Origin: an uncultured Alphaproteobacteria bacterium
Lineage (GTDB): Bacteria; Pseudomonadota; Alphaproteobacteria; Puniceispirillales; Puniceispirillaceae
DNA: 44,174 nucleotides
Direction: 5' to 3'
Assembly (NCBI GenBank): GCA_913042065.1
Contig: CAJWKB010000003.1
Location: 1-44,174, forward strand
The notes beneath the pieces were generated by a model. The model was not told the origin of the DNA, searched no databases, and was given only the letters and a program-made list of their open reading frames with translations. Positions 5,858-44,174 of this stretch are shown piece after piece. Position 1 is the first letter of the stretch, and each line of letters begins with the position of its first letter. A program made the translations under genes and the position numbers.

Positions 5858-5864
5858 CTGTCCT

Positions 5865-19443: not shown

Positions 19444-19592
19444 ATTCTCAATACTATGTCGCCGCGAAATGGGCAGGAAAAGCGCTCGACACTATAAGCC
19501 TGCCAAAAAATCCCCTATAGTTGCCATCTTGGCTAGAGCTACAGTCATAAGCTTAGAAACCAAAGGTCAGCAATTTGTACCGGAGAGAATTA

Positions 19593-20813: not shown

Positions 20814-20916
20814 CCGACTATCTATCCATCAGTTTACACCCAACGCATATCGCACATCCAGCAGCTGTGAAAGTTTCGATCTTGCCGCTGTTCATGTAAA
20901 CAGGCATCATTGACTT

Positions 20917-21654: not shown

Positions 21655-21672
21655 TTTGAGGGCAGCTATGCT

Positions 21673-23895: not shown

Positions 23896-23992
23896 GAATA
23901 GCGTCTCAGGGTCATGCGGGAAGATTTCAGATCACTGCCGACGACATCGCCAATTTTCCGAATATTCAAAAGCCATTAACTTTATATATCGT

Positions 23993-27542: not shown

Positions 27543-27570
27543 AGTGAAGAACCCTGCTTTCTGCCCTGTT

Positions 27571-28341
27571 TCATGCACGCGCCGACTGCATCAACTGCCG
27601 CATTTTGGCAATCGCCGCAGGCAGACCTGTAAAAATGCTTTCACCAATCAAAAAATGCCCAATATTCAACTCGACTATTTCCGGTATCGCCGCAACAGCG
27701 CTGACCGTATCATAATCAAGGCCATGGCCCGCATGACACTCCAGTCCGAGGCTTTGCGCCAGCCTTGCTGCTCTGGTAAGCCTTGCCAACTCATCGCTGC
27801 GCCCTACGGAGTCATGGCAATAGCGGCCTGTATGCAGCTCGACGATGTCAGCACCAATGGCCGCTGCTGCCCTGATTTCCACCTCACTTGCCTCGATGAA
27901 CAGGGATAGGCGAAGCCCCGCCTTCCTAATTGGAGCGAATAATCCCATCAATCGTACCTCATGACCCGCAACGGCCAGACCACCCTCAGTTGTCACCTCC
28001 TCGCGGCGCTCCGGCACGATACAAGCGGCATTAGGCATAAGTTCAACAGCCAGCGCCACCATTTCCTTGGTTGCCGCCATTTCAAAATTTAATGGAATGT
28101 TGATCGCCGCCCTGATCGCCGCCATGTCAGCATCTCGAATATGGCGCCTGTCTTCACGTAGGTGTGCCGTTACACCGTCAGCACCGGCGTTCTCTGCCAT
28201 GATTGCCGCTCGGACAGGGTCAGGGTGTGAACCACCACGCGCGTTACGAACGGTCGCTACATGGTCGATGTTCACCCCAAGTCGCAAAGCCTGCATCGAG
28301 CCGTCACTATTGTGATCCATCTGATCACTCCCGTCGTTCAT
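27571..28341 (-). CDS. pdxJ: Pyridoxine 5'-phosphate synthase
   Basis: A 256-residue TIM-barrel protein. LGVNIDHVATVRNARGG near the N-terminus, HLREDRRHI around residue 60, and GHGLDYDTV near residue 210 are the PdxJ landmarks. It condenses 1-deoxy-D-xylulose 5-phosphate with aminoacetone phosphate to form pyridoxine phosphate. The substrate is also used by dxr elsewhere in this window. The ATG at 28341 overlaps the previous stop (ATGA); in-frame ATGs at residues 8 and 16 are alternatives, and the last fits the family start best. Confidence 0.95.
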   Translation of the reverse strand: MNDGSDQMDHNSDGSMQALRLGVNIDHVATVRNARGGSHPDPVRAAIMAENAGADGVTAHLREDRRHIRDADMAAIRAAINIPLNFEMAATKEMVALAVELMPNAACIVPERREEVTTEGGLAVAGHEVRLMGLFAPIRKAGLRLSLFIEASEVEIRAAAAIGADIVELHTGRYCHDSVGRSDELARLTRAARLAQSLGLECHAGHGLDYDTVSAVAAIPEIVELNIGHFLIGESIFTGLPAAIAKMRQLMQSARA

Positions 28342-29012
28342 TTCTGTTCCGTTGAGGTCGTCTTTATTGCATTATCTTGGCTGTCCCGCTCAATCTCAAC
28401 AGACACATCATGGTTTTGGCCAGTCCCGTTCTTGCTAACAACCTCAGTTTTTGGCATCTGAAAATATCTGCGGTTCCGACCCTCGGCCAGTCGACGCGCT
28501 CGATGCTCCCGCCACCATGTTAGTGCCCAATAGGCCATACCAAACGTCGCGAACCACGCAACAACGCCCATAATAAGCCCGCCCATCATCATCGGCAGCA
28601 ACAACGGCATAAGATTGCTTAATGGGTCTGCTAGGATCTCGCTGATCGACAAATCTACATTTGGTGGCATCATGCCTAGTCGCACCACCCCCCAACTACC
28701 TATTGTAAAATCAGCACTGATGATAAAGGGAAAGGTCCATGGGTTGCCAACTATCGTACCAATCGCCGAAGCAAATATGTTCCCCCGAAGCAAATAGGCC
28801 AGAAATGCTCCAAGCAGAAAATGAAACCCGATGAACGGCGTGAACGAGACCGAGACACCGCAGGCTACGCCAATCGCAATCGACAGCGGACTTCCAGGCA
28901 TACGTGCAACGCGTTGCAACAGATACGAAAAAAGCCGCCTAAAACCGCGTTCCGGCCAAATAACGCCCCGGATTTGCGTCATAAACGATTGTGAACGCCG
29001 TCTTCTGAACAT
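28338..29012 (-). CDS. DUF2062 membrane protein
   Basis: About 224 residues. The central region (about residues 40-165) matches DUF2062: PLSIAIGVACGVSVSFTPF, then LGAFLAYLLRGN and GTIVGNPWTFPF. At least three hydrophobic segments can be seen, followed by a charged, basic C-terminal tail. Function is unknown; the family often sits next to pdxJ and rsh in Alphaproteobacteria, as here. The ATG at 29012 with AGG eight bases upstream is preferred over a TTG two codons earlier. It is co-transcribed with rsh and pdxJ. Confidence 0.85.
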   Translation of the reverse strand: MFRRRRSQSFMTQIRGVIWPERGFRRLFSYLLQRVARMPGSPLSIAIGVACGVSVSFTPFIGFHFLLGAFLAYLLRGNIFASAIGTIVGNPWTFPFIISADFTIGSWGVVRLGMMPPNVDLSISEILADPLSNLMPLLLPMMMGGLIMGVVAWFATFGMAYWALTWWREHRARRLAEGRNRRYFQMPKTEVVSKNGTGQNHDVSVEIERDSQDNAIKTTSTEQK

Positions 29013-29043
29013 TAGCAAACCTGATAATTTTTGGCCATTGCCA

Positions 29044-31176
29044 TCAGGCGTTTGCCGCCCGATCTACACTCTCTACATACTTGTTAGTCTGCAGAACTGC
29101 AATAATCGTGCGCATATGTTCCACATCTTTTACCTCAAGATCGAGCAGAATATGGAAAAAGTCTGGATTTCTATCCGACAGCCGGATGTTCGAAATGTTG
29201 CCACCCTGCTGGCTGATTACTGCAGCGACTGAAGCAAGACTGCCCGGCTCATTAGACAGCACGGTGTTGAGCCGCCCATTGACCATCCGAGTGGTATCAT
29301 CCTCCCAATCTACATCAAGCCACAATTCTGGCGTATCGTTAAATTTACTCAAAGTTGCGCATCCGATGGTATGGACTGTCACTCCTTTCCCGGTTGTAAA
29401 AATACCAACAATTGACTCTCCCGGCAGTGGATGGCAGCAACGCGCCATCATCACCGCTGTCCCGGAATTGTCACCCCGAATGGTGAGGCTTGGTTTGCTG
29501 TTTTTCCTCGGAGTATTTGGCGGAAAAGCACCACCTTCATCTGTGACCACATCAGGATATAACTTTTCAAGCACCCTCCGCGAAGACAAACGGTCCTCGC
29601 CAACAAGAGCAAATAAATCTTCAAGCCTTGTAACGTCAAATGCGCCTAGCGCCCGTTCAAGCGAACGACTGCGGAACGGCTTGCCATGCTCACGAAAGGT
29701 TTTCTGTATCAAGGCTTTGCCAATGCGGCTGAACTCGCTGGCGCGCTGGGCCCTGATAAAACGACGAATAGCCGATTTTGCTCGCCCGGTTAAAACAAAG
29801 CTCTCCCAATCTGCCTTCGGCTTGGCGCTAGGTTCGGTCAAAATTTCAATTTGGTCACCGTTTTCTAGTTCGGTGGCAAGTTGTCTGGTCTTCCCATTAA
29901 TTCGCACACCAACACACGTCTCGCCAATTTTCGTGTGGACAGCAAAAGCGAAATCAACTGCCGTTGCTCCTTTCGGCATCGCTATCAAATCACCGCGCGG
30001 GGTGAAACAGAACACTTGGTCCTTGTAAAGATCGAGCTTTGTGTGTTCGAGGAATTCATCGGCACCGGCCTCTTCATCAAGAATTCCGACAAGCTCCTGT
30101 ATCCATTTTATTTTACGTGTATTCATCTCCTTTGCCGAGTCCTTGTAATTCCAATGTGCTGCCACACCATGTTCGGCGATATTGTGCATTTCTGGTGTTC
30201 TAATCTGCACCTCGATCTTGTGATTTTCCGGACCAATAACGCCGGTATGCAGTGATTGATATCCATTTCGTTTTGGGGTCGAGATATAATCCTTGAACCT
30301 TCCCATAACCGTCGGGTAATTCAGATGCAACTGGCCAAGCGCGCGATAGCAGTCATTAACATCGGGCACCAGAACTCGGAACGCCATGATGTCAGCTAGT
30401 TGATCCATCGACACTTTTTTGCGCTGCATCTTTACCCAGATCGAATAAGGTGTTTTCATCCTCCCATTTACGCTTGATTCAATGCCAATCTGTTCCAGCT
30501 TTGATTGTAGCTCGACACTAATCATAGGGATCAGAATTTCGGACTCCGAAATCATAAAATCAAGACGGTTGATTATCCCCTGCCGCATCTCGGCGTCTAG
30601 CACCTCAAACGCTGTGTCCTCAAGTTCGTTTTGCAGACTCGTAACCCCAATCCGCTCAGCAAGGGGAGCAAAAATATCCATTGTTTCGCGAGCAATCCGT
30701 CGCCGCTTTTCTTCCTTACGGATGAAGGACAGCGTTCGCATATTGTGCGTGCGGTCTGCCAGCTTTACTAAAAGCACCCTCACATCCTCACTCATCGCTA
30801 GCAGCAATTTACGGAAATTCTCGGCTTGCGCGCTGCTTGGTGAGGATTGGATAGCAATACGCGACAATTTCGTCACGCCATCGACTAACTGCGCAACGTC
30901 ATCACCGAACTGTTCGGCAAGTGTTGGCAATTTGACGCCGCAATCCTCGACTGTGTCGTGCAGAAGAGCAGTAATAACGGTATCGACATCAAGGCGCATA
31001 TCAATGAGCAGATTTGCGACTGCAACCGGGTGCGTGAAATAAGGCTCTCCAGAGGCGCGCAACTGACCATCGTGCGCTGTCTTGCCAAGCTCAAACGCTT
31101 GTTCGAGGCGATTACCATCGATATACGGATCATAACCTCGTATTCGATCAATCAATGAATTTGCTGTTCCGATCAT
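29044..31176 (-). CDS. rsh: Bifunctional (p)ppGpp synthetase/hydrolase (Rsh, SpoT/RelA family)
   Basis: About 710 residues with the full long-RSH layout. The HD hydrolase domain (about 25-200) has FTHPVAVA and LLHDTVEDCG. The synthetase domain (about 235-350) has RFKDYISTPKRNGYQSLHT and EVQIRTPEMH. TGS (about 385-445) and a C-terminal ACT domain follow. The intact HDxxED-type motif and the RFKD signature indicate both hydrolysis and synthesis of (p)ppGpp, as in most Alphaproteobacteria with one Rsh. The ATG at 31176 is preferred over a TTG three codons upstream. It follows rpoZ, as in E. coli rpoZ-spoT. Confidence 0.96.
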   Translation of the reverse strand: MIGTANSLIDRIRGYDPYIDGNRLEQAFELGKTAHDGQLRASGEPYFTHPVAVANLLIDMRLDVDTVITALLHDTVEDCGVKLPTLAEQFGDDVAQLVDGVTKLSRIAIQSSPSSAQAENFRKLLLAMSEDVRVLLVKLADRTHNMRTLSFIRKEEKRRRIARETMDIFAPLAERIGVTSLQNELEDTAFEVLDAEMRQGIINRLDFMISESEILIPMISVELQSKLEQIGIESSVNGRMKTPYSIWVKMQRKKVSMDQLADIMAFRVLVPDVNDCYRALGQLHLNYPTVMGRFKDYISTPKRNGYQSLHTGVIGPENHKIEVQIRTPEMHNIAEHGVAAHWNYKDSAKEMNTRKIKWIQELVGILDEEAGADEFLEHTKLDLYKDQVFCFTPRGDLIAMPKGATAVDFAFAVHTKIGETCVGVRINGKTRQLATELENGDQIEILTEPSAKPKADWESFVLTGRAKSAIRRFIRAQRASEFSRIGKALIQKTFREHGKPFRSRSLERALGAFDVTRLEDLFALVGEDRLSSRRVLEKLYPDVVTDEGGAFPPNTPRKNSKPSLTIRGDNSGTAVMMARCCHPLPGESIVGIFTTGKGVTVHTIGCATLSKFNDTPELWLDVDWEDDTTRMVNGRLNTVLSNEPGSLASVAAVISQQGGNISNIRLSDRNPDFFHILLDLEVKDVEHMRTIIAVLQTNKYVESVDRAANA

Positions 31177-31247
31177 TTCCGCCAAGCTGGTTAAGGACGC
31201 TCAGCCTTCACGTTTATTATGACGCAACAATAAATGGCTGAAGAAGC

Positions 31248-31658
31248 TTAATCTTCGCCCTGGATTTCTGTTAGGTCAACATCTTCAAAACCCGATGTTT
31301 CCAGTTCTTCGCTGCTACCAATGTGTATACCGGCGTCTTCTGCCTCTTCACCGGCATAGTCACCGACCATTTCTGACAGATCCACTTCGGCGACTTTTGC
31401 TGCATCATCCTGGACTTCCTGCTCTTCCCGCACAGATAGACGCTGCAACTTTTGAACCAGCCCATCCTGTAAAACATCGAGATCGACGGTCTCTGCTGCA
31501 ATCTCGCGAAGTGCGACAACTGGATTCTTATCATTGTCGCGATCTAATGTCGGCTGATCCCCCTTTAGGATCCCGCGCGCGCGCTGGCCCGCTGTCAGCA
31601 CAAGATCAAAACGGTTGGGAATTTTTTCTATGCAATCTTCAACTGTCACGCGCGCCAT
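31248..31658 (-). CDS. rpoZ: RNA polymerase omega subunit
   Basis: A 136-residue product starting [20 protein letters not shown], with the family's [12 protein letters not shown] and [10 protein letters not shown] following. Omega helps assemble beta-prime and forms part of the ppGpp binding site on polymerase, which fits its place before rsh. The acidic C-terminal half (rich in Glu and Asp) is longer than in E. coli. GGAG lies six bases before the ATG at 31658. The 172-base gap upstream probably holds its promoter; it includes a TATATAA stretch near 31,740, but I could not settle a -35 and -10 pair. Confidence 0.95.
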
Positions 31659-31830
31659 GTGGTTCTCCATTATGTTGAGTCTGATACACGAAGAGGCCAG
31701 TCACAACGTAATGTGAGTGTTTGCCTGTATCTGCAGTTTATATAGTCCAATTGTTCAAAGGTGAGCTTCGGTTCAACGAAATACAGCAATTCAGCATAAC
31801 TGGCAATAGTGCTTATCATTGGTTTTGCAG

Positions 31831-32364
31831 TTAGCAAACGTTGTCCGAATCACTATCACCAATCGGTCGAACCAACTGATCATTGGGCAACGCCGCGATG
31901 AGCGCGCCAAGGTCGCTGCGGGTGATTGGGTGATGCCAATCAGGTACTACATCGCGCAATGGCAACAGAACGAAGGCACGTTCATGCATACGCGGATGCG
32001 GTAAGGTTAAACTCTCACCGTCGGTCACCATGCCGCCAAAATCGACTAGGTCAATATCTAGAACGCGCGCCTCGTTCCGCAAATTGCGGGTGCGCCCAAA
32101 CCGGGCTTCAATTTGATGCAGCACCAAAAGAGTGGCCGCCGCTGTTAACGACGTTTCGGCGACAATGACAGCATTGATATACCAAGGTTGATCAGAAATG
32201 GGCACTGGCGCTGTCTCATACCATCGAGATTGATCAAGAACTTGGATATCATGCCGTGCAAGTTGCCCGATTGCCGCATCGCACCCCTGTTGCAGTGTCT
32301 TATAGCCATTGGGCACAAGATTGCCGCCAATTCCAAGGATAATTCGGGTAACAGGAGGCTTCAC
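31831..32364 (-). CDS. folK: 2-amino-4-hydroxy-6-hydroxymethyldihydropteridine pyrophosphokinase
   Basis: About 177 residues. RIILGIGGNLVPNG opens the fold, followed by SRWYETAPVPISDQPWYINA. The signature RNEARVLDIDLVDFG holds the Mg-binding aspartates, and LTLPHPRMHERAFVLLPL is also typical. HPPK transfers pyrophosphate from ATP to the pterin in folate synthesis. No in-frame ATG fits the start. I propose GTG at 32364; a TTG at 32397 would add 11 residues. It lies upstream of rpoZ and is divergent from the NYN gene. Confidence 0.92.
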   Translation of the reverse strand: MKPPVTRIILGIGGNLVPNGYKTLQQGCDAAIGQLARHDIQVLDQSRWYETAPVPISDQPWYINAVIVAETSLTAAATLLVLHQIEARFGRTRNLRNEARVLDIDLVDFGGMVTDGESLTLPHPRMHERAFVLLPLRDVVPDWHHPITRSDLGALIAALPNDQLVRPIGDSDSDNVC

Positions 32365-32549
32365 TGATTTTCTCTTAATAAAAATGACAGGCCACAAATT
32401 GACAGGAGCATCAAGCTTGGAAGGAAATCATAATCTCTAAAGGTTGTTGCGCTGTTCGATTTGACTGGATAAACAAGGTGACATATTTTTTTTGTTGTCT
32501 GTTGTAACTTCATAACACCGAATCTAATAAGTTTTTCTATTGAACTCAA

Positions 32550-32578
32550 TTGAATAACCCGTCTGTAAGATTTATACG
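32550..32578 (+). promoter_or_regulatory. Candidate sigma-70 promoter for the NYN gene
   Basis: TTGAAT (32550-32555) and TATACG (32573-32578) are spaced by exactly 17 bases, and the ATG at 32605 is 26 bases further on. The -35 matches TTGACA at four positions; the -10 matches TATAAT at four. The 240-base divergent gap between folK and this gene is AT-rich and shows no other clear element. Confidence 0.4.
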
Positions 32579-32604
32579 ACTGACTTTCTTTAAATAGGTA
32601 AGAC

Positions 32605-33177
32605 ATGACAGTGACCAATGCCAACGAGCGTACCGCTCTCTTTATTGATGGGTCTAATTTCTATGCTGCTGCTCGGGCGCTTAGCATGGATATTGATTAC
32701 GCCAAAATGCGCGCTTTCTTTGCCGAGGACACTAACCTCCTACGCGCCTACTACTACACCGCTCTGCCAGAAGATCAAGAATTCTCGCCGCTGCGCCCAC
32801 TGATCGACTGGTTGGACTACAATGGCTATGCCGTAGTCAGCAAGCTGACGCGTGAATTTACCGACCCTGACTCGGGAAAGCGGCGGGTCAAAGGGAATAT
32901 GGATATGGAACTGGCACTCGATATGTTGAAGCTTGCACCACATATCGACCACGCGGTACTGTTTTCTGGTGACGGAGACTTTTGCCGCTTGCTTGAGGAT
33001 GTGCAGGGCATGGCAGTAAAAGTGACGGTGGTATCCAGCACCAAGACATCACCACCGATGGTCGCCGACTCGCTTCGACGGATGGCCGATGAATTCATCG
33101 AGATGGAGAGCATTCGCCACCAGATTACCCGTGCGATCCGGCAGAAGTCGGAAAGCAGCGACGAAAATGGTGATTGA
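32605..33177 (+). CDS. NYN domain (LabA/DUF88-like) predicted ribonuclease
   Basis: A 190-residue PIN-like protein. The acidic motifs are ALFIDGSNFY (Asp15, early), GNMDMELALDML near residue 96, and LFSGDGDFCRLLE near residue 114. They match the conserved aspartates of the NYN/LabA family (metal-dependent endonuclease fold, usually RNA-directed). The C-terminal quarter is charged and has no recognised domain. The next gene, a uracil-DNA glycosylase, overlaps it by 11 bases, so the two are probably translated together. The target is unknown. Confidence 0.85.
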   Translation: MTVTNANERTALFIDGSNFYAAARALSMDIDYAKMRAFFAEDTNLLRAYYYTALPEDQEFSPLRPLIDWLDYNGYAVVSKLTREFTDPDSGKRRVKGNMDMELALDMLKLAPHIDHAVLFSGDGDFCRLLEDVQGMAVKVTVVSSTKTSPPMVADSLRRMADEFIEMESIRHQITRAIRQKSESSDENGD

Positions 33178-33862
33178 TCAGCGTGTCTTAAAACATATGA
33201 CAGCCGTAGCCAAGTTTACCCCACCCCCACCTAATTGTGACAAATGTCCGCGCCTTCGCCGTTTTCGCAATAAGTATCGTCATAGCCACCCGCATTGGCA
33301 CAACGCGCCGGTCAATGCTGTCGGCCCATTTTCCGCGCAGCTTTTAATTGTCGGTCTGGCGCCAGGTCTGAAAGGTGCAAATGCCACTGGTCGACCATTT
33401 ACCGGGGACTCTGCCGGCGGTTACCTTTATCAGATGCTTAATCGTTTTGGATTGGCGACTGGCACCTATAGCGGTCATGCGGGTGATGGGGTGATACTTC
33501 ATGGTGTGCGCATCACAAATGCAGTCCGCTGCGTCCCGCCACAGAACAAGCCCATCGCCTCAGAAACCAGGTCATGTCAGTTCTTTTTGATGCGTGAAAT
33601 TTTAGCGATGACCAACCTTCGGACTATCCTTGCTCTTGGCAAATTAGCCCATGATTCTGTGCTTCGCTGTTTTAACTGTAGATTAGCCACCTACCCATTT
33701 GCCCATCAAAGCAACCATCTGATTGCCAGCAAATATCGGCTAATCAGCTCTTATCATTGCTCGCGCTACAACACTCAGACTGGACGTCTGACCGATGCAA
33801 TGTTTACAGCGGTGTTTACAGACATCACCCGCGCGATGAGCACGCAGAAAAAGTATGATTGA
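33167..33862 (+). CDS. Uracil-DNA glycosylase, family 5-like (Fe-S type)
   Basis: About 231 residues. The N-terminal CDKCPRLRRFR and later cysteines (RSCQFFLMREI, SYHCSRYN) fit the four-Cys Fe-S pattern of family 4/5 enzymes. The active-site region reads GLAPGLKGANATGRPFTGD, which is typical of family 5 (UdgB), and ITNAVRCVPPQNKP and SYHCSRYNTQTGRLT agree. The family removes uracil, and some members other deaminated bases, from DNA. The ATG at 33167 overlaps the NYN gene by 11 bases; ATG at 33197 is an alternative. It converges on smpB with six bases between them. Confidence 0.88.
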   Translation: MVIDQRVLKHMTAVAKFTPPPPNCDKCPRLRRFRNKYRHSHPHWHNAPVNAVGPFSAQLLIVGLAPGLKGANATGRPFTGDSAGGYLYQMLNRFGLATGTYSGHAGDGVILHGVRITNAVRCVPPQNKPIASETRSCQFFLMREILAMTNLRTILALGKLAHDSVLRCFNCRLATYPFAHQSNHLIASKYRLISSYHCSRYNTQTGRLTDAMFTAVFTDITRAMSTQKKYD

Positions 33863-33868
33863 AGGCGT

Positions 33869-34336
33869 TCAGCCCTTGGCGCGCAGCAGCCGAGCCTTTT
33901 CCCGACCCCAATCACGATCCTTTGCCGCCTGCCGCTTATCCTGCTTTCTGCGTCCCTTGGCCAGACCGATTTGCAGCTTGGCAAGGCCACGATCATTGAA
34001 ATAGAGATTCAATGGCACCAACGTCATGCCCTCACGCCTGATCAGGCCCAGCAGCCGGCTCCGTTCCTTCACCCTGACCAACAACTCGCGCGGGCGCTTT
34101 GGCTCATGATTGAGCCGAGCTGGCTCATAAATCGGAATGTTGGCATTAAACAGCATCAATCGGCCCCGATCCTCGCCGGCATATGATTCGGCAATGCTAG
34201 CACGGCCGGTACGCAGTGATTTGACCTCGCTGCCCTGCAGGATTATGCCGGCCTCAATACGGTCTTCGATTTCATATTCGTGACGTGCCTTGCGGTTTTC
34301 CGCAATTCTACCAGTCGTAATATGTCCTGTGGCCAT
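33869..34336 (-). CDS. smpB: SsrA-binding protein SmpB
   Basis: A 155-residue SmpB with [18 protein letters not shown] near the start, [29 protein letters not shown], and a basic C-terminal tail ([16 protein letters not shown]). SmpB carries tmRNA to stalled ribosomes for trans-translation. dapA-smpB is a common alphaproteobacterial pair. The ssrA gene itself is not in the window. Confidence 0.96.
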
Positions 34337-34401
34337 TTTCCGCCCCTAACCGCTCGTCACCTGTCACCTGTCTCTACGATGACAGATCAGCAGTAGCTTT
34401 C

Positions 34402-35304
34402 CTATGTCAAAAGCCCAGCGCTGACCAGAGCTGCCTTTACCTGAACCTTACTGTCATCCGCGATCTCACACAAAGGCAGCCGCGTTTCCGACCCGCAAAT
34501 TCCTAGCAACCTAGCTGCATATTTCACCGGTCCCGGACTTGCCTCACAGAACATGGCGTCATGCACAGGCATTAGACGCCGGTTTAATTCCTGTGCATTG
34601 GCAATGTCACCGGCGCGCCACGCATTGTGCATATCGGAAACCTGTCGTGGTGCAATGTTAGATGTCACCGAAATCGCGCCATGTCCACCAGCGGCCAGGT
34701 AAGGAAGCGTTGTCGCGTCCTCTCCCGACATCTGCGAAAACCCATTGCCAAACAGAGTGACCAGCTTCGGTGGACGGGCAACATCACTTGTTGCATCTTT
34801 GATACCGCTGATATTTGGATAATCAGCCGCCATCCTTGCCAGCGTGTTGTCACTAACACGGACAATTGAACGTCCAGGGATATCATAGACGACCACCGGT
34901 ACCTCGACAGCCCGGGCAACTGCAGTGAAATGGCAATAGAGACCGTCCTGCGTCGGCTTGTTGTAATAAGGGCTCACGATCAACACTGCGTCTGCGCCCG
35001 CCTTGGCGGCGTGTTCGGCAAGCCGCACGGCCTCGGCAGTGCTGTTTGAGCCAGCACCGGCAATCACAGGAATACGGCCAGCCGCCTGTTCAATGCAGAT
35101 CTCAATCACCCTGTCATGTTCGGCATGCGAAAGAGTTGGCGATTCACCGGTGGTACCGACAGGAACCAGCCCATTGGTTCCACTCTCAATCTGCCAGTCG
35201 ACAAGTTTTCGAAACGCGACCTCATCCACCTTGCCATCGGCAAAGGGTGTGATAAGAGCGGTGTAGGAGCCGGCAAATTGCGGTGTTGCGTTCTGATCTG
35301 TCAT
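34402..35304 (-). CDS. dapA: 4-hydroxy-tetrahydrodipicolinate synthase
   Basis: A 300-residue TIM-barrel lyase. GTTGES is at 50-55, catalytic Tyr140 is in VVYDIPGR and the Schiff-base Lys169 is in SGIKDATSD; SPYYNKPTQDG also fits. DapA condenses pyruvate with aspartate semialdehyde, the first step toward lysine and meso-diaminopimelate for peptidoglycan. The ATG at 35304 has GGAAAAG just ahead. Upstream ATGs at 35316 and 35421 would add residues outside the family. It is divergent from the PLP dehydratase gene. Confidence 0.95.
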   Translation of the reverse strand: MTDQNATPQFAGSYTALITPFADGKVDEVAFRKLVDWQIESGTNGLVPVGTTGESPTLSHAEHDRVIEICIEQAAGRIPVIAGAGSNSTAEAVRLAEHAAKAGADAVLIVSPYYNKPTQDGLYCHFTAVARAVEVPVVVYDIPGRSIVRVSDNTLARMAADYPNISGIKDATSDVARPPKLVTLFGNGFSQMSGEDATTLPYLAAGGHGAISVTSNIAPRQVSDMHNAWRAGDIANAQELNRRLMPVHDAMFCEASPGPVKYAARLLGICGSETRLPLCEIADDSKVQVKAALVSAGLLT

Positions 35305-35492
35305 TGTCTTTTCCATTTCAGGAGTGAATGGCTCACCCGGTGTGGCCTTCGCCCAAAATAAGCGGGTAACAGGGCAAAAACAACCCGGCAAAATAAACCC
35401 CTGGCAAACCGTGATGGACAATTGTCGACGACAGCTTCACAGTCTAAAATTGGAGTCGTTGACGATTTGGGGTTTGACGGGAGCAGCCAGTG

Positions 35493-36503
35493 ATGACAGA
35501 TGAGTTTACCGGTGTTGAAGCAGCCAACAGACTCGACCTCGATACCATCGAAGCGGCGGCACAGCGCATTGCACCACATATTGTCACGACACCTCTTCTG
35601 GAATCACCTAGGCTGAACGACTGGCTTGGCTTTCGGCTGTTGATCAAAGCTGAAAATCTGCAAAATACCGGCTCTTTCAAACTGCGTGGTGCGAGCAATG
35701 CCATCTGGTCACTAGATGATGATGTAAGAAAGGTATTCGCCTATTCCAGTGGCAATCATGCGCAGGGCGTTGCACACGCCGCGACAACCCGCGGCCTGCA
35801 GGCGACAATTCTGATGCCGGAGGATTCACCCCGGGTCAAAATTGCGGGAACGCGCGCCTTTGGTGGTACCGTCATCACATATGATCGCTACGTCGAAAAT
35901 CGTGAGGACATTGGTGAGCGCATAGCTGCCGAAACCGGTGCTATTCTCATCCGTCCCTATGAGGACACGCGGGTCATTGCCGGACAGGGAACCGTAGGGC
36001 TTGAAATTGCTGCTCAATGCGCAGCGATGGGCGTCACTCCCGATCATCTGGTCTGCTGTTGCGGTGGTGGTGGCCTGATCGCCGGCATCAGTACCGTGCT
36101 TCGCGCCAAAATGCCCACCACCCAAATATGGGCGGCGGAACCAAGTGGCTATGATGACACCATTCGGTCACTTGCGTCCGGCAGACGCGAACGTGCCGAC
36201 ACCTCGCACCATTCGATCTGCGATGCTATTGTCACACCGCAGCCGGGTGAGATGACCTTTGTGATCAATCAGAAAACACTTGCCGGTGGCTTTGCCATTG
36301 AGGACTCCCTGGCCCTTCAAAGCATGGCGGTTGCCTTTGATCACCTAAAGCTGGTAGTCGAACCCGGCGGTGCAGTGGCGCTGGCAGCGGCGCTAGACCG
36401 CAGACTGCCAAAGGGTGCTAACATTATTGTTGCCGTAATCTCAGGCGGCAATGTGGATGCTGATATTTTTGAACGCGCGCTGGAGACTCCACCACTGCTG
36501 TAA
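35493..36503 (+). CDS. PLP-dependent threonine/serine dehydratase or serine racemase family protein
   Basis: A 336-residue fold-type II PLP enzyme without an ACT domain. Lys63 in TGSFKLRGA binds PLP, SSGNHAQGVA (85-94) is the substrate loop, and GGGGLIAG (191-198) holds the phosphate. The size fits L-threo-3-hydroxyaspartate dehydratases, serine racemases and catabolic threonine dehydratases, which cannot be told apart by eye. GGGAG lies about nine bases before the ATG; a GTG one codon earlier is possible. It lies 90 bases upstream of cobU on the same strand, but a shared function is not obvious. Confidence 0.85.
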   Translation: MTDEFTGVEAANRLDLDTIEAAAQRIAPHIVTTPLLESPRLNDWLGFRLLIKAENLQNTGSFKLRGASNAIWSLDDDVRKVFAYSSGNHAQGVAHAATTRGLQATILMPEDSPRVKIAGTRAFGGTVITYDRYVENREDIGERIAAETGAILIRPYEDTRVIAGQGTVGLEIAAQCAAMGVTPDHLVCCCGGGGLIAGISTVLRAKMPTTQIWAAEPSGYDDTIRSLASGRRERADTSHHSICDAIVTPQPGEMTFVINQKTLAGGFAIEDSLALQSMAVAFDHLKLVVEPGGAVALAAALDRRLPKGANIIVAVISGGNVDADIFERALETPPLL

Positions 36504-36592
36504 AATTCAAAGCCACCAATCCATAAAATTTCGCTTTCACTTAAACCTGGAACAGGCGATAACAGCCACCAGCCTGCAATCGGATGTCAGCC

Positions 36593-37132
36593 ATGAGCAC
36601 GAACCAGAACTTCCGCAAAATCAGTTTTGTACTTGGCGGTGCCCGATCCGGCAAATCACTCCATGCTGAAACATTGGCAAAAACGCAGCACAACGCACCC
36701 GGTCAGCTTGTCTATCTTGCCACAGCCCAGATTTTTGACGAGGAAATGCAGACCCGCATTGATCTGCACAGGCAACGCCGGGGCGGCGAATGGGTGCTTG
36801 CCGAGGCACCGATAGACCTCGTGGACACGCTTCGCAGCTTTGATCATCCAAACAATGTCGTTCTTGTCGACTGTCTGAGTGTCTGGGTGACAAATCTGAT
36901 CATTAACGGGCATGATGTTGCTACTGCGCGTGACGGGCTGATTGCACATTTGGCGAAAAGCATTTCCTCACTAACGTTTGTGGCGAGCGAGACAGGCCTT
37001 GGCATTGTCCCCGACAACGAATTGTCACGTCAATTCCGAGATGAGAGTGGTCGTTTGAACCAGATGGTCGCCGCAGCGTCAGACGATGTCTTTTTCGTAA
37101 CAGCGGGCATTGCCCAGAAGATAAAACCATAG
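36593..37132 (+). CDS. cobU: Adenosylcobinamide kinase / adenosylcobinamide-phosphate guanylyltransferase
   Basis: A 179-residue product with the P-loop GGARSGKS (residues 15-22) and RIDLHRQRRGGEW, containing the His guanylylated in CobU. VDCLSVWVTNLI and the C-terminal RDESGRLNQMVAAASDDVFFV also match. It makes GDP-cobinamide, the activated corrin half of B12. A start at 36584 would add three residues; 36593 has a better upstream GGAT. No cobalamin riboswitch can be recognised in the short gap before it. It is the first gene of a four-gene B12 cassette. Confidence 0.92.
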   Translation: MSTNQNFRKISFVLGGARSGKSLHAETLAKTQHNAPGQLVYLATAQIFDEEMQTRIDLHRQRRGGEWVLAEAPIDLVDTLRSFDHPNNVVLVDCLSVWVTNLIINGHDVATARDGLIAHLAKSISSLTFVASETGLGIVPDNELSRQFRDESGRLNQMVAAASDDVFFVTAGIAQKIKP

Positions 37133-37170
37133 CGGTTTGCGTATCATCCTTTCCAATCGTCAATGAGCGT

Positions 37171-38190
37171 ATGATGTCCTCGTTTGCTTCTTCCAATCAT
37201 ATAACTGAAATTATTGGTAATCTACCAAATGGCTCAGTGGTCACGATGAAAAAAGCGCGTGAACGTCAGGCACAATTGACAAAGCCACCGGGATCGCTTG
37301 GCAAGCTCGAGGATATCGCCGTCTGGCTGGCCGGATGGCAGGGTGTGGCAGAACCCCAGATTAACAATGGCCAATGCCTAATTTTTGCTGGCAGTCACGG
37401 TGTGGTGGCAAAGGGCGTCAGCCCCTTTCCTGCCGAGGTGACAACGCAGATGGTGATGAATTTCGAAGCAGGAGGCGCTGCAATCAACCAACTCTGCCGC
37501 GAGGCTGGATTGTCTCTGACCGTGGTGCCATTGCAACTTGACGTTCCAACAGGAGACATTTCCGAGGGTATGGCAATGACGCCTGATGAGGTGATTGCCG
37601 CGATGAATGCCGGCGCTGACGCGCTTGATGACAGCTGTGACTATCTAGTTGTTGGCGAAATGGGCATCGGCAACACAACTGCAGCTGCAGCATTGACGAT
37701 GGGTCGATTTGGTGGTGACGCTAGCAGATGGGTAGGCCCTGGCACAGGCCTTGATGCTGAGGGTGTTGCCCATAAGGCAAAAATTGTCGATCAAGCCTTC
37801 GCCAGACATGGCCGGCTCAATGGCGACCCTGTGTCGCTGCTGGCCCATTATGGCGGGCGTGAGCTGGCGGCAATCGCTGGAGCGGTTCTGGCAGCACGCA
37901 TGCGCTCAATTCCGGTGATGCTTGACGGCTTCATCAGCTCGGCCGCGGCATCGGCACTGACGGCAGGCAACCGGCTGTCGGTACTGGATCATTGCGAAAT
38001 TTCTCACATGTCGGCTGAACCAGGCCATTTACAACTTGCCGTTGCCCTCCATAAGCAACCGATCGTCGACCTTAACATGCGCCTAGGTGAAGGTAGCGGC
38101 GCGGCAACTGCAACATTGCTGGTGCGCGCAGCCTTGGCAACACATAATGGCATGGCAACTTTTGCCGAAGCAGGAGTCAGCAAAGCATAA
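37171..38190 (+). CDS. cobT: Nicotinate-nucleotide-dimethylbenzimidazole phosphoribosyltransferase
   Basis: A 339-residue CobT. The early segment TKPPGSLGKLEDIAVWLAGW, the motif AGSHGVVAKGVSPFP, VVGEMGIGNTTAAAAL in the middle, and LRLGEGSGAA (carrying the catalytic Glu) near the end are all conserved. It activates the lower ligand base to alpha-ribazole phosphate. The ATG at 37171 is followed at once by a second ATG. The cobS start overlaps its stop (TAATG). Confidence 0.95.
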   Translation: MMSSFASSNHITEIIGNLPNGSVVTMKKARERQAQLTKPPGSLGKLEDIAVWLAGWQGVAEPQINNGQCLIFAGSHGVVAKGVSPFPAEVTTQMVMNFEAGGAAINQLCREAGLSLTVVPLQLDVPTGDISEGMAMTPDEVIAAMNAGADALDDSCDYLVVGEMGIGNTTAAAALTMGRFGGDASRWVGPGTGLDAEGVAHKAKIVDQAFARHGRLNGDPVSLLAHYGGRELAAIAGAVLAARMRSIPVMLDGFISSAAASALTAGNRLSVLDHCEISHMSAEPGHLQLAVALHKQPIVDLNMRLGEGSGAATATLLVRAALATHNGMATFAEAGVSKA

Positions 38191-39053
38191 TGGCACCACA
38201 GACGAAAAAATTTACGGACCAGCATGCAGAAAAGACTCAGCAGAAATACAGGGGACCGGGCAGCATTTCACAGCCTCCGCTGGCTGATCTTGCTGCTGCC
38301 TTTTTGCTGTTGAGCCGACTCCCGGTGTTTTGGCATAACTTTGACCATGATTCACCGCCTGACTTTATTGCTGCCCAATGGGCGTTTCCCGTCGTTGGCC
38401 TTATTGTCGGTAGTATCGCCGGGCTAGTTTTGTGGCTGGCCATTTCGCTTGATTTTCCTTTGATTGTCGCCGCCACACTTGCACTGGCCGTTATGCTGGC
38501 AATTACCGGTGCAATGCATGAAGATGGCCTCGCTGACACTATTGACGGATTTGGCGGTGGCGGCGACCCCAAGACCAAGGCGAGAATCATGCATGATAGC
38601 CACATTGGCAGTTATGGGGTCATGGGGTTATGCCTCTCGACCATTGCTCGTGTCGGGTTACTGGTCGCACTAGCAGAACATAGTGAAGGCTGGTCGCTCG
38701 TCATCATCATGGCTGTTGTTGGCGCGGGCGCCCGCTTTCAGGTGCTTGCTATGCTGCGGCTCTATCCCATCAGCAACTATGCTAAACTTGGAATGCTGAC
38801 TGGCCAGCCAAATGTCAGACGCGGCCTATTAGGGATGGCAATATGGGTTTTGCCATTGATGATAGTTGTTCCCCAGATCGGTGTTATCGCGGCAGTCGTT
38901 GGTGCAACCGCTATAAGCCTATGGCTCGGCAAGCTTGCCGTCAGCCAGATTGGCGGGCTTAGCGGCGATGTCATGGGAGCGTCGATCATTCTTGGTGAAA
39001 TCAGCATTCTCAGCTGTGTCATCATTGCGCTCACGGGCGGATATGGCATATGA
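38190..39053 (+). CDS. cobS: Adenosylcobinamide-GDP ribazoletransferase (cobalamin synthase)
   Basis: A 287-residue polytopic membrane protein with about six or seven helices. LLLSRLPVFW near residue 40, AMHEDGLADTIDGFGGGGDP near residue 112 (the Asp-rich active-site motif), and MHDSHIGSYGVMG are the CobS signatures. It joins GDP-cobinamide to alpha-ribazole (phosphate) at the inner membrane. The N-terminal 30 residues are longer and more polar than usual. It overlaps cobT by one base and the phosphatase by four. Confidence 0.94.
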   Translation: MAPQTKKFTDQHAEKTQQKYRGPGSISQPPLADLAAAFLLLSRLPVFWHNFDHDSPPDFIAAQWAFPVVGLIVGSIAGLVLWLAISLDFPLIVAATLALAVMLAITGAMHEDGLADTIDGFGGGGDPKTKARIMHDSHIGSYGVMGLCLSTIARVGLLVALAEHSEGWSLVIIMAVVGAGARFQVLAMLRLYPISNYAKLGMLTGQPNVRRGLLGMAIWVLPLMIVVPQIGVIAAVVGATAISLWLGKLAVSQIGGLSGDVMGASIILGEISILSCVIIALTGGYGI

Positions 39054-39667
39054 CGCATCCAGCGATTACCGACTTCTATTTCATTCGGCACGCACCGGTG
39101 ATCAAACGCGAGGGACATTTGCCGCCGCACGACCCGCCCATCAAGAGGGAGCCCTATAATCTGGAACCGCTGAAGGCACGGCTGCCTCAAAATGCCGACT
39201 GGCATATCTCACCCCTGCTTAGAACTCGTCAAACCGCAGATCTACTGATGCCTGAACTTGTTCCGGGATCAGTGATCGTTGATGACAGGCTTATTGAAAT
39301 GGATTTTGGTCAATGGCATGACCAGCCAATCGCAGAAGTTTGGGCCGAAATTGCCGAAGGTCCCCGTCACAATTGGTCATTTATAATGCCAGATACGCAG
39401 CCACCTGGCGGCGAGAGTTTTAACGCCCAATGCAAACGCATTGCCAGTTGGCTTGATGAAAGGGCGGCGCAACCCGCAACCAACCCTCAGATCATTATCA
39501 CCCATGCTGGCGTGATAACCGCCGTTCTTAGTCATATTCTTAAGATATCGTCGCAACAGGCAATCGGCGTCACAGTGCCAAATTTAGCTGTTCTTCAAAC
39601 CAGTTTGATGGAACCAGACAGAGCTACCAATGCTGGTGGTCCATGGCAGATGGTGTCTTTCGGCTAG
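39050..39667 (+). CDS. Histidine phosphatase family protein, probable alpha-ribazole phosphatase (CobC-like)
   Basis: A 205-residue phosphoglycerate-mutase-fold protein. The phosphohistidine motif is FIRHAPV (His14), TRQTADLL follows near residue 61, the acidic residue lies in LIEMDFGQWHD near residue 85, and the second His in IITHAGVITAVL near residue 151. The position at the end of cobU-cobT-cobS, with an ATGA overlap, suggests it removes the 5' phosphate from alpha-ribazole phosphate or cobalamin phosphate. Fold evidence alone would only say phosphatase. Confidence 0.82.
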   Translation: MTHPAITDFYFIRHAPVIKREGHLPPHDPPIKREPYNLEPLKARLPQNADWHISPLLRTRQTADLLMPELVPGSVIVDDRLIEMDFGQWHDQPIAEVWAEIAEGPRHNWSFIMPDTQPPGGESFNAQCKRIASWLDERAAQPATNPQIIITHAGVITAVLSHILKISSQQAIGVTVPNLAVLQTSLMEPDRATNAGGPWQMVSFG

Positions 39668-39695
39668 CGCGTGTTGGCTATCTGCCAATACCTTT

Positions 39696-39878
39696 TTAAA
39701 CTGTCAGCTGGCGGGTCCCGCGTGGATCAATCCACCCGATGGAACCATCACTTCGCCGGTGCACGACATTCAGGCCAAAATGGCCGGCATTGCGGAACAT
39801 CATCATATTTTCGCCGCTCAGTTCGATCCGCATCACCGCCTGCTCAACCGTTAGCACCTCGATGTCGTAGGACAGATC
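39696..39878 (-). pseudogene. hpf: C-terminal domain fragment of long-form ribosome hibernation promoting factor (HPF)
   Basis: The last 59-60 codons of this reading frame match the C-terminal dimerisation domain of long HPF: LTVEQAVMRIELSG, then MMMFRNAGHFGLNVVHRR and DGSIGWIDP. The family pattern is AVMRMEL...FRNA...LNVVYRRxDGxxGxIxP. This domain pairs 70S ribosomes into 100S dimers. The N-terminal ribosome-binding domain is missing; glycosyltransferase sequence takes its place. GC in this stretch (33 of 60 bases in each of lines 39721 and 39781) resembles the left-hand genome. The gene converges on the phosphatase. Confidence 0.78.
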
Positions 39879-40775
39879 GGCAACCACCGGCAGGCCGGCG
39901 GCCATCGCTTCCACGACGGCGATGGGAAACTGCTCCGACCGGCTGGAGAGCGCGAACATGTCGAACAGGCCGATCAGCTTGGCAGGCTCCGCCACGAAAC
40001 CGGGCAGGTGCACGCGGTCTTCCACGCCCACGCGCTCCGCCTCGGCCAGCAGGGCATCGCGCTCCGGCCCCTCGCCCGCGATCACCAGTTGCCATTCGGG
40101 CGGCATCCATTCCATCACCCGCACCAGCACGTCGAGCTGCTTGACCGCGCGCAGGCCCGCCATGGCGCCCAACCAGAACTCGTCTTTGTGCTTGATGAGG
40201 CCGGGCAGGATGTCGCGCTTTGGCGGGGCGGCAAAGGCGCGGGTATCGATGCCGTTGGGAATGCGCCGCACGCGAGTGCGCGGCTGGCTCCATACGTTGA
40301 GAGCGATATCCTCAAGCTTGGCAGAGGGCACCACCAGCGCCGCCGTGCGGCCCAGCGCGATCTTGCGATACCAGTTGCGCCGCTTCTTCAGGCGCTTCGC
40401 CTCGTCCTCGTTGAAGCCATCCTCGTGGTGCACCAGCGGCGGCAGCTTGAAGGCATCGGCAAAGACCGTGTGCGCCATTACCGCATCGATCGCGCCCCAG
40501 TTGTAGGTGCAGACCAGGTCGTAGCCCCGCATCGCCTTGGCCAGTGCCGCCAGCCGGCCCGGCGTGGGCCTGCCCTGCAGCGGCGGGAACTTGGGCCACG
40601 AAACGCGCGCCTTCTTGCCCAGCATCGCTGCCGCGCCGCGCTTTTCCAGATCGCCCGAAACTATGGCGTGGTCCACTTCCTTGCCCCATTCGTTGATGAG
40701 GCGGACGTTGCGCAACTCCTTGCCCCCTGGATCGAAAGTGGAGTGCAGGTGCAGTATCTTCGGTGTCTTGCTCAT
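39696..40775 (-). CDS. GT4 glycosyltransferase, C-terminally truncated and fused in frame to an HPF tail
   Basis: The first 300 or so of 359 residues are a GT-B glycosyltransferase. KILHLHSTFDPGGKELRNVR is the N-terminal fold, RIPNGIDTRAF the interdomain motif, AGEGPERDALL the donor-domain start, and SEQFPIAVVEAMAAGLPVVA the E-x7-E-type donor site. Normal GT4 proteins continue with GD-type loops and a C-terminal helix for 70-80 more residues; here the sequence changes into the HPF domain. The natural acceptor is unknown. The ATG at 40775 overlaps the hydrolase stop (ATGA). Codon use becomes strongly GC-rich here. Confidence 0.8.
   Translation of the reverse strand: MSKTPKILHLHSTFDPGGKELRNVRLINEWGKEVDHAIVSGDLEKRGAAAMLGKKARVSWPKFPPLQGRPTPGRLAALAKAMRGYDLVCTYNWGAIDAVMAHTVFADAFKLPPLVHHEDGFNEDEAKRLKKRRNWYRKIALGRTAALVVPSAKLEDIALNVWSQPRTRVRRIPNGIDTRAFAAPPKRDILPGLIKHKDEFWLGAMAGLRAVKQLDVLVRVMEWMPPEWQLVIAGEGPERDALLAEAERVGVEDRVHLPGFVAEPAKLIGLFDMFALSSRSEQFPIAVVEAMAAGLPVVADLSYDIEVLTVEQAVMRIELSGENMMMFRNAGHFGLNVVHRRSDGSIGWIDPRGTRQLTV
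39870..39892. other. Putative chimeric junction between two genomes
   Basis: Here the protein reading changes from glycosyltransferase (AAGLPVVA) to HPF linker (DLSYDIEVLT). Hand-counted GC rises from 55% (39721-39840) to 63-65% (39901-40020) and 80% (40021-40080). Both families can plausibly read PVVA at this point, so a few bases of microhomology may lie at the join. The exact base cannot be fixed by eye. Confidence 0.7.
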
Positions 40776-41638
40776 GCCTGTGCCACCTTGGCCAGCAGCC
40801 ACGCGATAGCCTCCAGCGCGGCGGGTTCTTCAAGCGTTGGTGCATGGCCGACACCCGGCACGGTGACGAGTTCCATGCCCTTCACTTCCTCCCCCATGCG
40901 GCGGAAAGTGGCATCCGACAGCAGGTCCGAGAGTTCACCCCGCAGGGCCAGCAAGGGCAGGCCCTCAAGAGACTTGAGCGCAGGCCACAGGTCCATGCCC
41001 AGCCCGCCGCCGGGCTGCGCGAACGGAAGGGCGATCTTCATGTCGTAGTCGTAGGCGATGCGCCCGTTGCCCGACACGCACATCAGCCGCTTGGTGTAGC
41101 GCAGCCAGTCCTCGATATCGAAACCGGGATAGATGTGGCTCGCCCCGTCGCGCGTGGCCCAGGCGGCGTGCATCCACGTTGGATAGCTGCGGCCCTGCCC
41201 CACGTAGTCGCGAATGCGGGCCATCCCGTCTTCCTCGATCACGGGACCGATATCGTTGATGACGGCTCCTGCGAATTTCACCCCCGCCTGCGCCAGCAGC
41301 ATGGTGATGATCCCGCCAAGCGAGGTACCCACGGCTACCACTTCACCCAGGTTCGCCTGCTCGATCAGGGCAGTGACGTCCTCGATGTAGTGCGCAGGCG
41401 TATAGCTGGCCGGATCCTTGGCATAGTCGCTCTGCCCGCGCCCGCGCAGGTCTGCGCAGACCACTCGCCATTCCCCCGCGAAAGTCTCTGCCAGCGGCTC
41501 GAAATCGCGGGCGTTGCGGGTAAGGCCGGGGATGCACAGGATCGCCGGGCGGTCGGCCCGTCCCGGATAGTCCCGGTAATGCAGCGTCAGCCCGTCGCTG
41601 CTTTCCCATGTGCCTGTCGAGTAGGCCGCGTCGCTCAA
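40772..41638 (-). CDS. Alpha/beta hydrolase fold protein
   Basis: About 288 residues. The nucleophile elbow is GTSLGG (Ser106), the oxyanion strand reads ILCIPGLTRNARDFEPLA, ADLRGRGQSDY is the usual strand-4 turn, and the catalytic His is in VPGVGHAPTLEEP near the end. The family includes esterases and epoxide- or lactone-type hydrolases; the substrate cannot be read from sequence. No ATG fits the start; a TTG at 41638 with AAAGG about eight bases upstream gives a normal N-terminus. It is co-transcribed with the glycosyltransferase (ATGA) and divergent from selO. Confidence 0.85.
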   Translation of the reverse strand: MSDAAYSTGTWESSDGLTLHYRDYPGRADRPAILCIPGLTRNARDFEPLAETFAGEWRVVCADLRGRGQSDYAKDPASYTPAHYIEDVTALIEQANLGEVVAVGTSLGGIITMLLAQAGVKFAGAVINDIGPVIEEDGMARIRDYVGQGRSYPTWMHAAWATRDGASHIYPGFDIEDWLRYTKRLMCVSGNGRIAYDYDMKIALPFAQPGGGLGMDLWPALKSLEGLPLLALRGELSDLLSDATFRRMGEEVKGMELVTVPGVGHAPTLEEPAALEAIAWLLAKVAQA

Positions 41639-41699: not shown

Positions 41700-43100
41700 A
41701 TGCGACACGAACCGCAACCGGCCAAGTACACTCCCGACACACGAATCGAAGAGGTGGCGGATTTCCTCGCCGATCCGGTTGTTGCCGCCGACTTCCCGAA
41801 GCACGTGCTGCGCTTCCGCAATGAAAGGTGGGACAAGGCCGTGGGCCTGGGTTCGCTGTCGGAGGAGGACTGGCTGCGCCACTTCGGCAGGTTCGAACCA
41901 CTTCCCGATAACCTGCCCAAGCCTCTCGCGCTCAGGTATCACGGCCACCAGTTCCGCGTGTACAACCCCGAAATCGGCGACGGTCGCGGGTTTCTGTTCG
42001 CGCAGATGAGGGACGGCGAAGGCCGCCTGCTGGACCTCGGCACCAAGGGCAGCGGCACCACGCCCTACAGCCGCACCGCCGACGGACGCCTGACGCTGAA
42101 AGGCGGGGTGCGCGAGATTCTCGCCACCGAAATGCTGGAAGCTCTGGGCGCGAATACATCCAAGACCTTCTCCATCGTCGAGACCGCAGAGGCGCTGGAA
42201 CGCGGGGACGAGCCCTCCCCCACCCGCTCCGCCGTGATGGTGCGCCTCAGCCACGGGCACATCCGCATCGGCAGCTTCCAGCGGCTGATGGCGTTCGAGG
42301 AAAACGAGCACCTCGCCCGGCTGGTCGACTATTGCCTCGCCACCTATCCCGGCCCCCCGCCGCCCGAAGACGCGCCGGGACGCGACGAGCCTGCGATCCG
42401 GCTGATGCACCAGGTGACGGAACGGATGGCGGACCTTGCCGCCAGTTACATGGTGGCAGGCTTCGTCCACGGCGTGCTCAACACCGACAACATGAACATC
42501 AGCGGGGAAAGCTTCGATTACGGGCCGTGGCGCTGGCTGCCTCGGTGGGACCCCGGCTTCACCGCCGCCTACTTCGACCAGACCGGCCTCTACGCCTTCG
42601 GCCGCCAGCCCGAAGCGATCCGCTGGAACCTCGGTCAGTTCGCCATCGCCCTGCGCCCGCTGGTTGAGGCAGAGCCGCTGGTCGCCGCGCTGGAGCGGTT
42701 CGGCACGCTCTACCATCACGCAATGGCGCGCCGGTTCTGCTGGCGGCTGGGGATCGAGGAGCGCGGACTGGAGACCGATGCCGCTGTCATCAATGCTGCC
42801 GAGGGCACGATGCGGGAAGGCAAGATGGGGCCGGACGAATTCTTCTATCGCCATCGCGGCGGCAGGAACGCGCAAGGGGCGCTGGCAGAAGCCCTCGAAG
42901 GCAGCAGCCCTCTCGATTCCAGCCACGATTACTGGCGCGAGGGCGCACCGGAAACGATGCTGATCGACGAGGTCGAGACGCTGTGGTCCGCCATCGACGA
43001 GCGCGACGACTGGGCACCGCTCTACGACAAGATCGCCCGCTTGCGCCGCATGGGCGATGCACTGGGCGAACCGCCCGCTCCGCCTGCTCACGAGGGATGA
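41700..43100 (+). CDS. selO: SelO/YdiU family protein adenylyltransferase (pseudokinase fold)
   Basis: About 466 residues. YHGHQFRVYNPEIGDGRG (80-97), LGTKGSGTTPYSRTADGR (113-130), VREILATEML, HGVLNTDNMN (257-266) and DYGPWRW (273-279) are SelO landmarks. The kinase-like metal-binding residues Asn and Asp are present. SelO proteins transfer AMP to Ser, Thr or Tyr of target proteins in an inverted ATP-binding mode. This copy is slightly short and its tail (EPPAPPAHEG) lacks the C-terminal redox Cys/Sec motif of many family members. The ATG at 41700 is the family-consistent start; its ribosome site is weak. Confidence 0.88.
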   Translation: MRHEPQPAKYTPDTRIEEVADFLADPVVAADFPKHVLRFRNERWDKAVGLGSLSEEDWLRHFGRFEPLPDNLPKPLALRYHGHQFRVYNPEIGDGRGFLFAQMRDGEGRLLDLGTKGSGTTPYSRTADGRLTLKGGVREILATEMLEALGANTSKTFSIVETAEALERGDEPSPTRSAVMVRLSHGHIRIGSFQRLMAFEENEHLARLVDYCLATYPGPPPPEDAPGRDEPAIRLMHQVTERMADLAASYMVAGFVHGVLNTDNMNISGESFDYGPWRWLPRWDPGFTAAYFDQTGLYAFGRQPEAIRWNLGQFAIALRPLVEAEPLVAALERFGTLYHHAMARRFCWRLGIEERGLETDAAVINAAEGTMREGKMGPDEFFYRHRGGRNAQGALAEALEGSSPLDSSHDYWREGAPETMLIDEVETLWSAIDERDDWAPLYDKIARLRRMGDALGEPPAPPAHEG

Positions 43101-43166: not shown

Positions 43167-43625
43167 ATGCGCAAGCTAGCAATCGTTGGTATCGCAACCG
43201 CCGCCATCGCCACTTCGGCCTGGGCCATCGAACCGGGCAACTGGGAAACCAACAGCCGCCTCGCCGATCTACAGCTGCCGGCAGACATGCCGCCGCAAGC
43301 GGCTGACATGATGCGTCAGATCATGGGCGGCGAAGGCATGACGGCGCAGAACTGCATCACGCAGGACCAGATCGACAATTCGCCCGAGCGCATCTTCGAG
43401 GAAACCAACGGCGAATGCCGTTACACCGAGTTCGACATGTCGGGCGGCGAAATCCATGCCGTGGCCCAGTGCGAGAGCGACGAGGGCACGATGGATATGA
43501 CCATGGACGGGACCTACACAGCGTCCACGTACGACATGACCATGACGATGCGCGGGAACATGGGCATGGGGCCGATGACCATGACTTTCGATGTGACCGG
43601 ACGCCGTCTTGGCGCTTGTGGATGA
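43167..43625 (+). CDS. DUF3617-like exported protein
   Basis: A 152-residue secreted protein. The signal peptide (residues 1-21, ending TSAWA) is followed by IEPGNWETNSRL, the usual start of DUF3617 proteins (pattern PGxWE). The two middle cysteines (NCITQDQ, ECRYTEF) and a late Cys also fit. The C-terminal half is rich in Met and Thr (repeated TMTM-type segments, expected beta strands). The function of the family is unknown; it is frequent in Sphingomonadales. AGGGGG lies just before the ATG at 43167. Confidence 0.8.
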   Translation: MRKLAIVGIATAAIATSAWAIEPGNWETNSRLADLQLPADMPPQAADMMRQIMGGEGMTAQNCITQDQIDNSPERIFEETNGECRYTEFDMSGGEIHAVAQCESDEGTMDMTMDGTYTASTYDMTMTMRGNMGMGPMTMTFDVTGRRLGACG

Positions 43626-43794: not shown

Positions 43795-44174
43795 TTGAGC
43801 CAAACCGCCGAACTCATCTCGTACGAGCCTGCCACCGGAGCCGAACTGTGGCGCGCACCCCACGGCGATGTGGACGAACTGGTCGACCGCGCACGGCGCG
43901 CATGGCCCGCCTGGGCGTCCGAGCCGCTATCGAGGCGTATCGAACTGGTGCGCCGCTTCGCAATCCAGGTGGAAAAGGACCAGGAGGCTTTTGCCCGGCT
44001 GATCGCGCGCGAAACGGGCAAGCCGCTGTGGGAAGCGCGCACGGAAGTGTCCGCCGTGATCGCTAAGGTCGATATCTCGATAAAAGCCTATTCGGAGCGA
44101 ACCGGCCAGCGAAAACTCGACAGCGCGCTGCAAGGCTCTGCCGCGCTGCGCCACAAGCCGCACGCGGTCTGCAT
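43795..44174 (+). CDS. astD: N-succinylglutamate 5-semialdehyde dehydrogenase, N-terminal part (cut by window edge)
   Basis: The visible 126 codons read MSQTAELISYEPATGAELWR, then an aldehyde-dehydrogenase N-terminal domain with LIARETGKPLWEARTEV and KVDISIKAYSERTG. This last segment and LRHKPHAV closely follow AstD rather than other aldehyde dehydrogenases. AstD oxidises succinylglutamate semialdehyde in the arginine succinyltransferase pathway. No in-frame ATG exists after the stop codon at 43753, so the TTG at 43795 (AAGGG nine bases upstream) is taken as the start. The catalytic Cys lies beyond the window. No other ast gene is visible. Confidence 0.85.
   Translation, partial: MSQTAELISYEPATGAELWRAPHGDVDELVDRARRAWPAWASEPLSRRIELVRRFAIQVEKDQEAFARLIARETGKPLWEARTEVSAVIAKVDISIKAYSERTGQRKLDSALQGSAALRHKPHAVC

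Follow-up and report, generated by a model that had tools for sequence, protein, structure and literature searches.

The window analysed here (i.e. the whole stretch of 44,174 nt) contains two sets of genes that meet within one open reading frame (ORF) on the minus strand at 39696–40802 (Table 1). From its ATG, the frame comprises 359 codons and spans a piece of a glycosyltransferase (GT) and a piece of an HPF protein. Pfam analysis of this ORF returns two unrelated families, family 4 GT domains and then Ribosom_S30AE_C, and both the family and the closest relatives change after about residue 299. This agrees with the preliminary description, which had noted a change of protein identity inside one reading frame: the ORF is an in-frame GT::HPF fusion.

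Table 1. Features of the window on both sides of the join
Feature	Position	Strand	Remarks
SAR116 side	1..39882	.	52–53% GC; ends with PALP-family enzyme gene, cobU, cobT, cobS, cobC and hpf 3' end
cobC-like histidine phosphatase	39050..39667	+	PF00300, E 2.7e-24; last intact gene of SAR116 side
hpf/raiA 3' end, C-terminal domain only	39696..39878	-	PF16321, E 8.5e-13 on 39699–39875
Join	39883..39895	.	13 bases common to window, SAR116 hpf (L107) and Erythrobacteraceae GT (L095)
Family 4 glycosyltransferase, residues 1–298	39882..40775	-	native last ~80 residues absent
Alpha/beta hydrolase	40775..41635	-	PF12697, E 2.2e-19; 85% identity in L125
selO (protein adenylyltransferase)	41700..43100	+	PF02696, E 5.3e-123; 88% identity in L125
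DUF3617 protein	43167..43625	+	PF12276, E 7.3e-23; 83% identity in L125
Aldehyde dehydrogenase, cut by window end	43795..44172	+	PF00171, E 1.2e-17; 93% identity in L125

Both pieces of the ORF are incomplete. The best matches of the ORF are glycosyltransferases with up to 93% identity across 85% of its length, and the named ones among them belong to Aurantiacibacter. In an alignment with 11 GT relatives, identity breaks off after the motif GLPVVA, and PF00534 covers profile positions 13–121 of 172 in the window versus 11–171 in an intact relative (P0002). In all 22 right-hand loci inspected (L083–L104, 3.6–3.9 kb each, fetched from about 145 distinct GT places), the GT gene continues past the join position to its own C-terminus and lies beside the hydrolase gene. 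The HPF piece consists of the C-terminal 60 codons, with PF16321 starting at residue 297 (E 3.4e-12 when the entire ORF is scanned, 8.5e-13 for the piece alone), and 59 of its 60 residues are identical to those of P0241, the top HPF match among those listed (an intact protein of 205 aa from a cluster of 110 sequences). The combination of PF02482 and PF16321 that characterizes long-form HPF/RaiA is present in P0241 and in the L002 protein; the ORF in the window contains PF16321 only. In the best 16 HPF matches, the linker before the C-terminal domain is variable and the following DLSYDIEVLTVEQAV stretch is near-constant.

A native, working protein that combines a glycosyltransferase with an HPF C-terminal domain would be in keeping with the single 359-codon frame that holds both domains. 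However, the GT stops inside PF00534 (position 121 of 172), the HPF N-terminal domain is missing, GC content and k-mers change over in the same region, and a GT::HPF fusion occurs neither among the 120 listed matches of the GT search, which scored only the 8000 candidates with most words in common, nor among the 120 of the HPF search. We regard such a native fusion as extremely improbable.

We then examined the relatives of both sides. The left-hand side belongs to the SAR116 cluster, i.e. Puniceispirillales in taxonomy. Pfam scans of left-hand proteins gave family matches for cobU, cobT, dnaE and cobS; the CobS protein has a 100% identical counterpart on a 2-kb contig (P0121) and an 85% identical one named Candidatus Puniceispirillaceae (P0122), and cobC shares 74–82% identity with the three nearest SAR116 contigs. 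Contigs of three SAR116-family genomes are collinear with the window across the parts they hold, the longest of them starting at the dnaE 5' end (about 13215) and reaching the hpf C-terminus, while positions 1–13214 are assigned to this side by composition only. With that qualification, the coherent alphaproteobacterial backbone described previously is a SAR116 one. Among SAR116-family loci (L105–L124, the best 20 of 36 places from the family search, 2.2–3.9 kb each), cobC is present in 19 and hpf is convergent to it in 17; the exceptions are L118 (contig end), L123 (hpf absent from the stretch examined) and L124 (cobC absent). In L107, one of the 17, a contig end cuts hpf further on, and the join position is still covered. 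Another 12 loci (L001–L012), largely the same contigs, were left out of these synteny counts. Five SAR116-family genomes gave only weak GT matches (31–41% identity, best E 6.4e-12).

The right-hand side is Aurantiacibacter-like, a genus of the family Erythrobacteraceae, as the earlier suggestion of Sphingomonadales/Erythrobacteraceae-like content had anticipated. The GT, hydrolase, selO, DUF3617 and aldehyde dehydrogenase genes occur in L125 (93% GT identity) in the order and orientation of the window and with near-equal spacing; three further loci (L126–L128) keep the order and lack a DUF3617 match. In a class-wide draw, a GT match at E 1e-60 or better was found in 4 of 385 genomes; within the family of the best of these, 143 of 397 genomes have one at E 1e-100 or better. 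At the window end, 4.3 kb past the join, the sequence is still Aurantiacibacter-like. Protein searches on the two sides, which the preliminary description had proposed as a check, thus lead to SAR116 on the left and to Aurantiacibacter-like bacteria on the right.

Composition changes in the same way. GC content is 52–53% in five left-hand blocks of ~8 kb and 53.9% in a sixth block that overlaps them (35500–39870), versus 65.2% to the right of the join (39890–44174). Tetranucleotide profiles of the five left blocks correlate at 0.86–0.94 with three SAR116 references and at 0.69–0.87 with four right-hand references (0.90–0.92 and 0.67–0.77, respectively, for block 35500–39870); for the right block, the corresponding values are 0.60–0.68 and 0.81–0.88. 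The profile therefore passes from SAR116-like to Erythrobacteraceae-like at the join. GC alone cannot place the join finely because the change-point interval is broad: the two top-scoring positions (39811 and 39877) are almost equal, and all positions within 2 log-likelihood units of the best lie inside 39700–39895. The join lies within 39860–39900, where an abrupt genome switch had been proposed on the basis of rising GC, and the profiles of the two sides differ as they should if that proposal is right.

The adjacency of the two sides was not seen in the relatives' loci. No GT match was found in the 20 left-hand loci and no hpf match in the 22 right-hand loci, i.e. none of these relatives has the adjacency that would have spoken for a contiguous genome. 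ARAGORN detected no tRNA in the window, and a scan of eight proteins near the join gave no match to a mobile-element family, which bears out the earlier statement that neither a mobile element nor a tRNA marks the boundary. None of the signs expected at the border of a horizontally transferred island (integrase, transposase or tRNA) turned up in these scans. Two plasmid records contain sequence matching a portion of the GT, and neither goes across the join. On these three grounds (tRNA, protein scan and plasmid matches), we rejected a mobile-element explanation. In viral_contigs, the GT alignment yielded 27 pattern matches, of which none is a relative, and the exact 44-base junction pattern had no match in the same set.

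At the join itself lies a short word that both parental genes appear to have in common, as judged from relatives. In a register alignment, the SAR116 hpf of L107 equals the window without mismatch over 39868–39895, and the Erythrobacteraceae GT of L095 does so over 39883–39914. This comparison took in 17 of the 22 GT loci and, for hpf, 26 of the 30 loci (L001–L012 and L105–L122), the remainder falling outside the anchor pattern; the longest run in any compared pair is 15 bases (L090 versus L002 or L106), with one base unlike the window. At the protein level, AGLPVVA is exact in 82 of the 120 listed GT matches. In the HPF linker before the C-terminal domain, GLPVVA occurs in 5 and AGLPVVA in 2 of the 120 listed matches (106 of which could be compared with the window piece; the anchor motif is missing in the remaining 14). 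P0241, the closest listed HPF, has AGLPVVA just before its C-terminal piece and in the same frame as the GT, and L001 likewise encodes AGLPVVADLSYDI. If the true left parent, like P0241, encodes AGLPVVA, the overlap may extend to 21 bases (39879–39899, the AGLPVVA codons). This longer estimate is derived from protein rather than DNA, and mainly from P0241, given the rarity of AGLPVVA among listed HPF matches (2 of 120); synonymous codons could shorten it. The junction 21-mer does not occur in the 86 loci searched. Its absence fits true parents that lie outside those loci and does not directly prove that the overlap measures 21 bases.

For comparison, right-hand sequence (67 kb) and left-hand sequence (95 kb, including the left part of the window) have 466 words of 13 bases in common, 39 of 15 and 2 (overlapping) of 17, and none of at least 19. 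Words of 13 bases thus do occur between such genomes; we infer that one located exactly at the join is not there by chance. The earlier statement that no repeat marks the boundary needs refinement in this respect: a word (13 exact bases in one pair of relatives, perhaps 21 in the parents) appears to be common to both parental genes, and the boundary does seem to be marked by it, although it shows up only if the two parents are set side by side. What this adds to the preliminary description is a probable reason why the join sits at this position and why it is in frame. The fusion would be in frame because both parents encode (A)GLPVVA in the same frame, and no function of the fused product needs to be invoked.

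These results suggest that the contig is very likely a chimera of a SAR116 bacterium and an Aurantiacibacter-like bacterium, joined at a shared word during assembly or amplification. The SAR116 hpf and the Aurantiacibacter-like GT would share an exact word (13 bases in one pair of relatives, perhaps 21 in the parents); a crossing between the genomes inside that word, due either to an assembler or to template switching by a polymerase in whole-genome amplification, would have created an in-frame, meaningless GT::HPF ORF. The crossing would have occurred in vitro or in silico, not inside a cell. The sides come from different organisms (SAR116 versus Aurantiacibacter-like), a short shared sequence lies at the join and the adjacency is absent from relatives, as expected of a chimeric contig. 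The parents compared here are relatives rather than the source genomes (83–93% identity to L125 on the right side). The in-frame fusion, which resembles a natural one, could be held against a chimera, but the shared word accounts for the frame. Assembly k-mers in common use are longer than 13 bases; the assembly route needs the longer overlap suggested by the proteins, which would have to be at least as long as the k of the assembler.

Alternatively, a real recombination event at the 13–21-base word in a living cell could have brought Aurantiacibacter-like DNA into a SAR116 chromosome, or vice versa. Illegitimate recombination could likewise make use of such a short word, and the ORF remains open. 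Such an event would, however, break two genes that are uninterrupted at the join position in every relative's locus where they were found (17 for hpf and 22 for GT); the right segment retains the composition of its source group, the fusion is absent among the listed protein matches, and the tRNA or mobile-element family that might have accompanied a transfer is missing from the window and from the eight scanned proteins, respectively. We consider recombination in a cell very unlikely. A recombinant chromosome, if real, would be an inter-order one with both hpf and GT broken, which is just as doubtful. An assembly or amplification chimera, already favoured over transfer in the preliminary description, is better supported by the relatives of both sides, by the lack of a shared adjacency in the loci compared and by the lack of the fusion among the listed protein matches.

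The join closely resembles known artefacts. It shares with intergenomic chimeric metagenome contigs the two taxa, the abrupt switch in composition, the shared word at the join, and an adjacency and fusion that were not found elsewhere in the searched sets; we found no difference from such contigs. Chimeric contigs in metagenome assembly have been evaluated previously (e.g. PMC3100316). For multiple displacement amplification (MDA), Lasken and Stockwell (2007; PMC1855051) report chimera priming at 2–21 complementary bases in >70% of junctions. The short shared word at our junction lies inside that reported range. In contrast, their data concern one E. coli cell, in which >85% of rearrangements were inversions, whereas two species are joined here.

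The feature is thus most likely an artefact that holds no new biology. Genes on opposite sides of the join should not be taken as neighbours, and the earlier advice to distrust any link between the cob cassette and the right-hand genes is justified, as the sides represent different bacteria. The contig should be split at about 39879–39899 before any use. Left unsplit, it would attribute the cobalamin genes of SAR116 to an Erythrobacteraceae genome, or vice versa, and introduce a spurious GT-HPF fusion protein into databases. More generally, a short peptide shared by chance can yield an in-frame artefact that resembles a domain fusion.

Some minor observations concern the SAR116 side. It contains two PALP-family (PF00291) enzyme genes (19575–20813 and 35490–36503), both of which we take to be threonine dehydratase-like, and the second lies directly before cobU-T-S-C, both in the window and in the three SAR116 contigs used for comparison. 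In a SAR116 relative (L129:10837–11726, G793 contig 48), cobS is split over two frames: residues 1–62 and 58–287 match separately, with an internal TAA, perhaps reflecting a sequencing or assembly error there.
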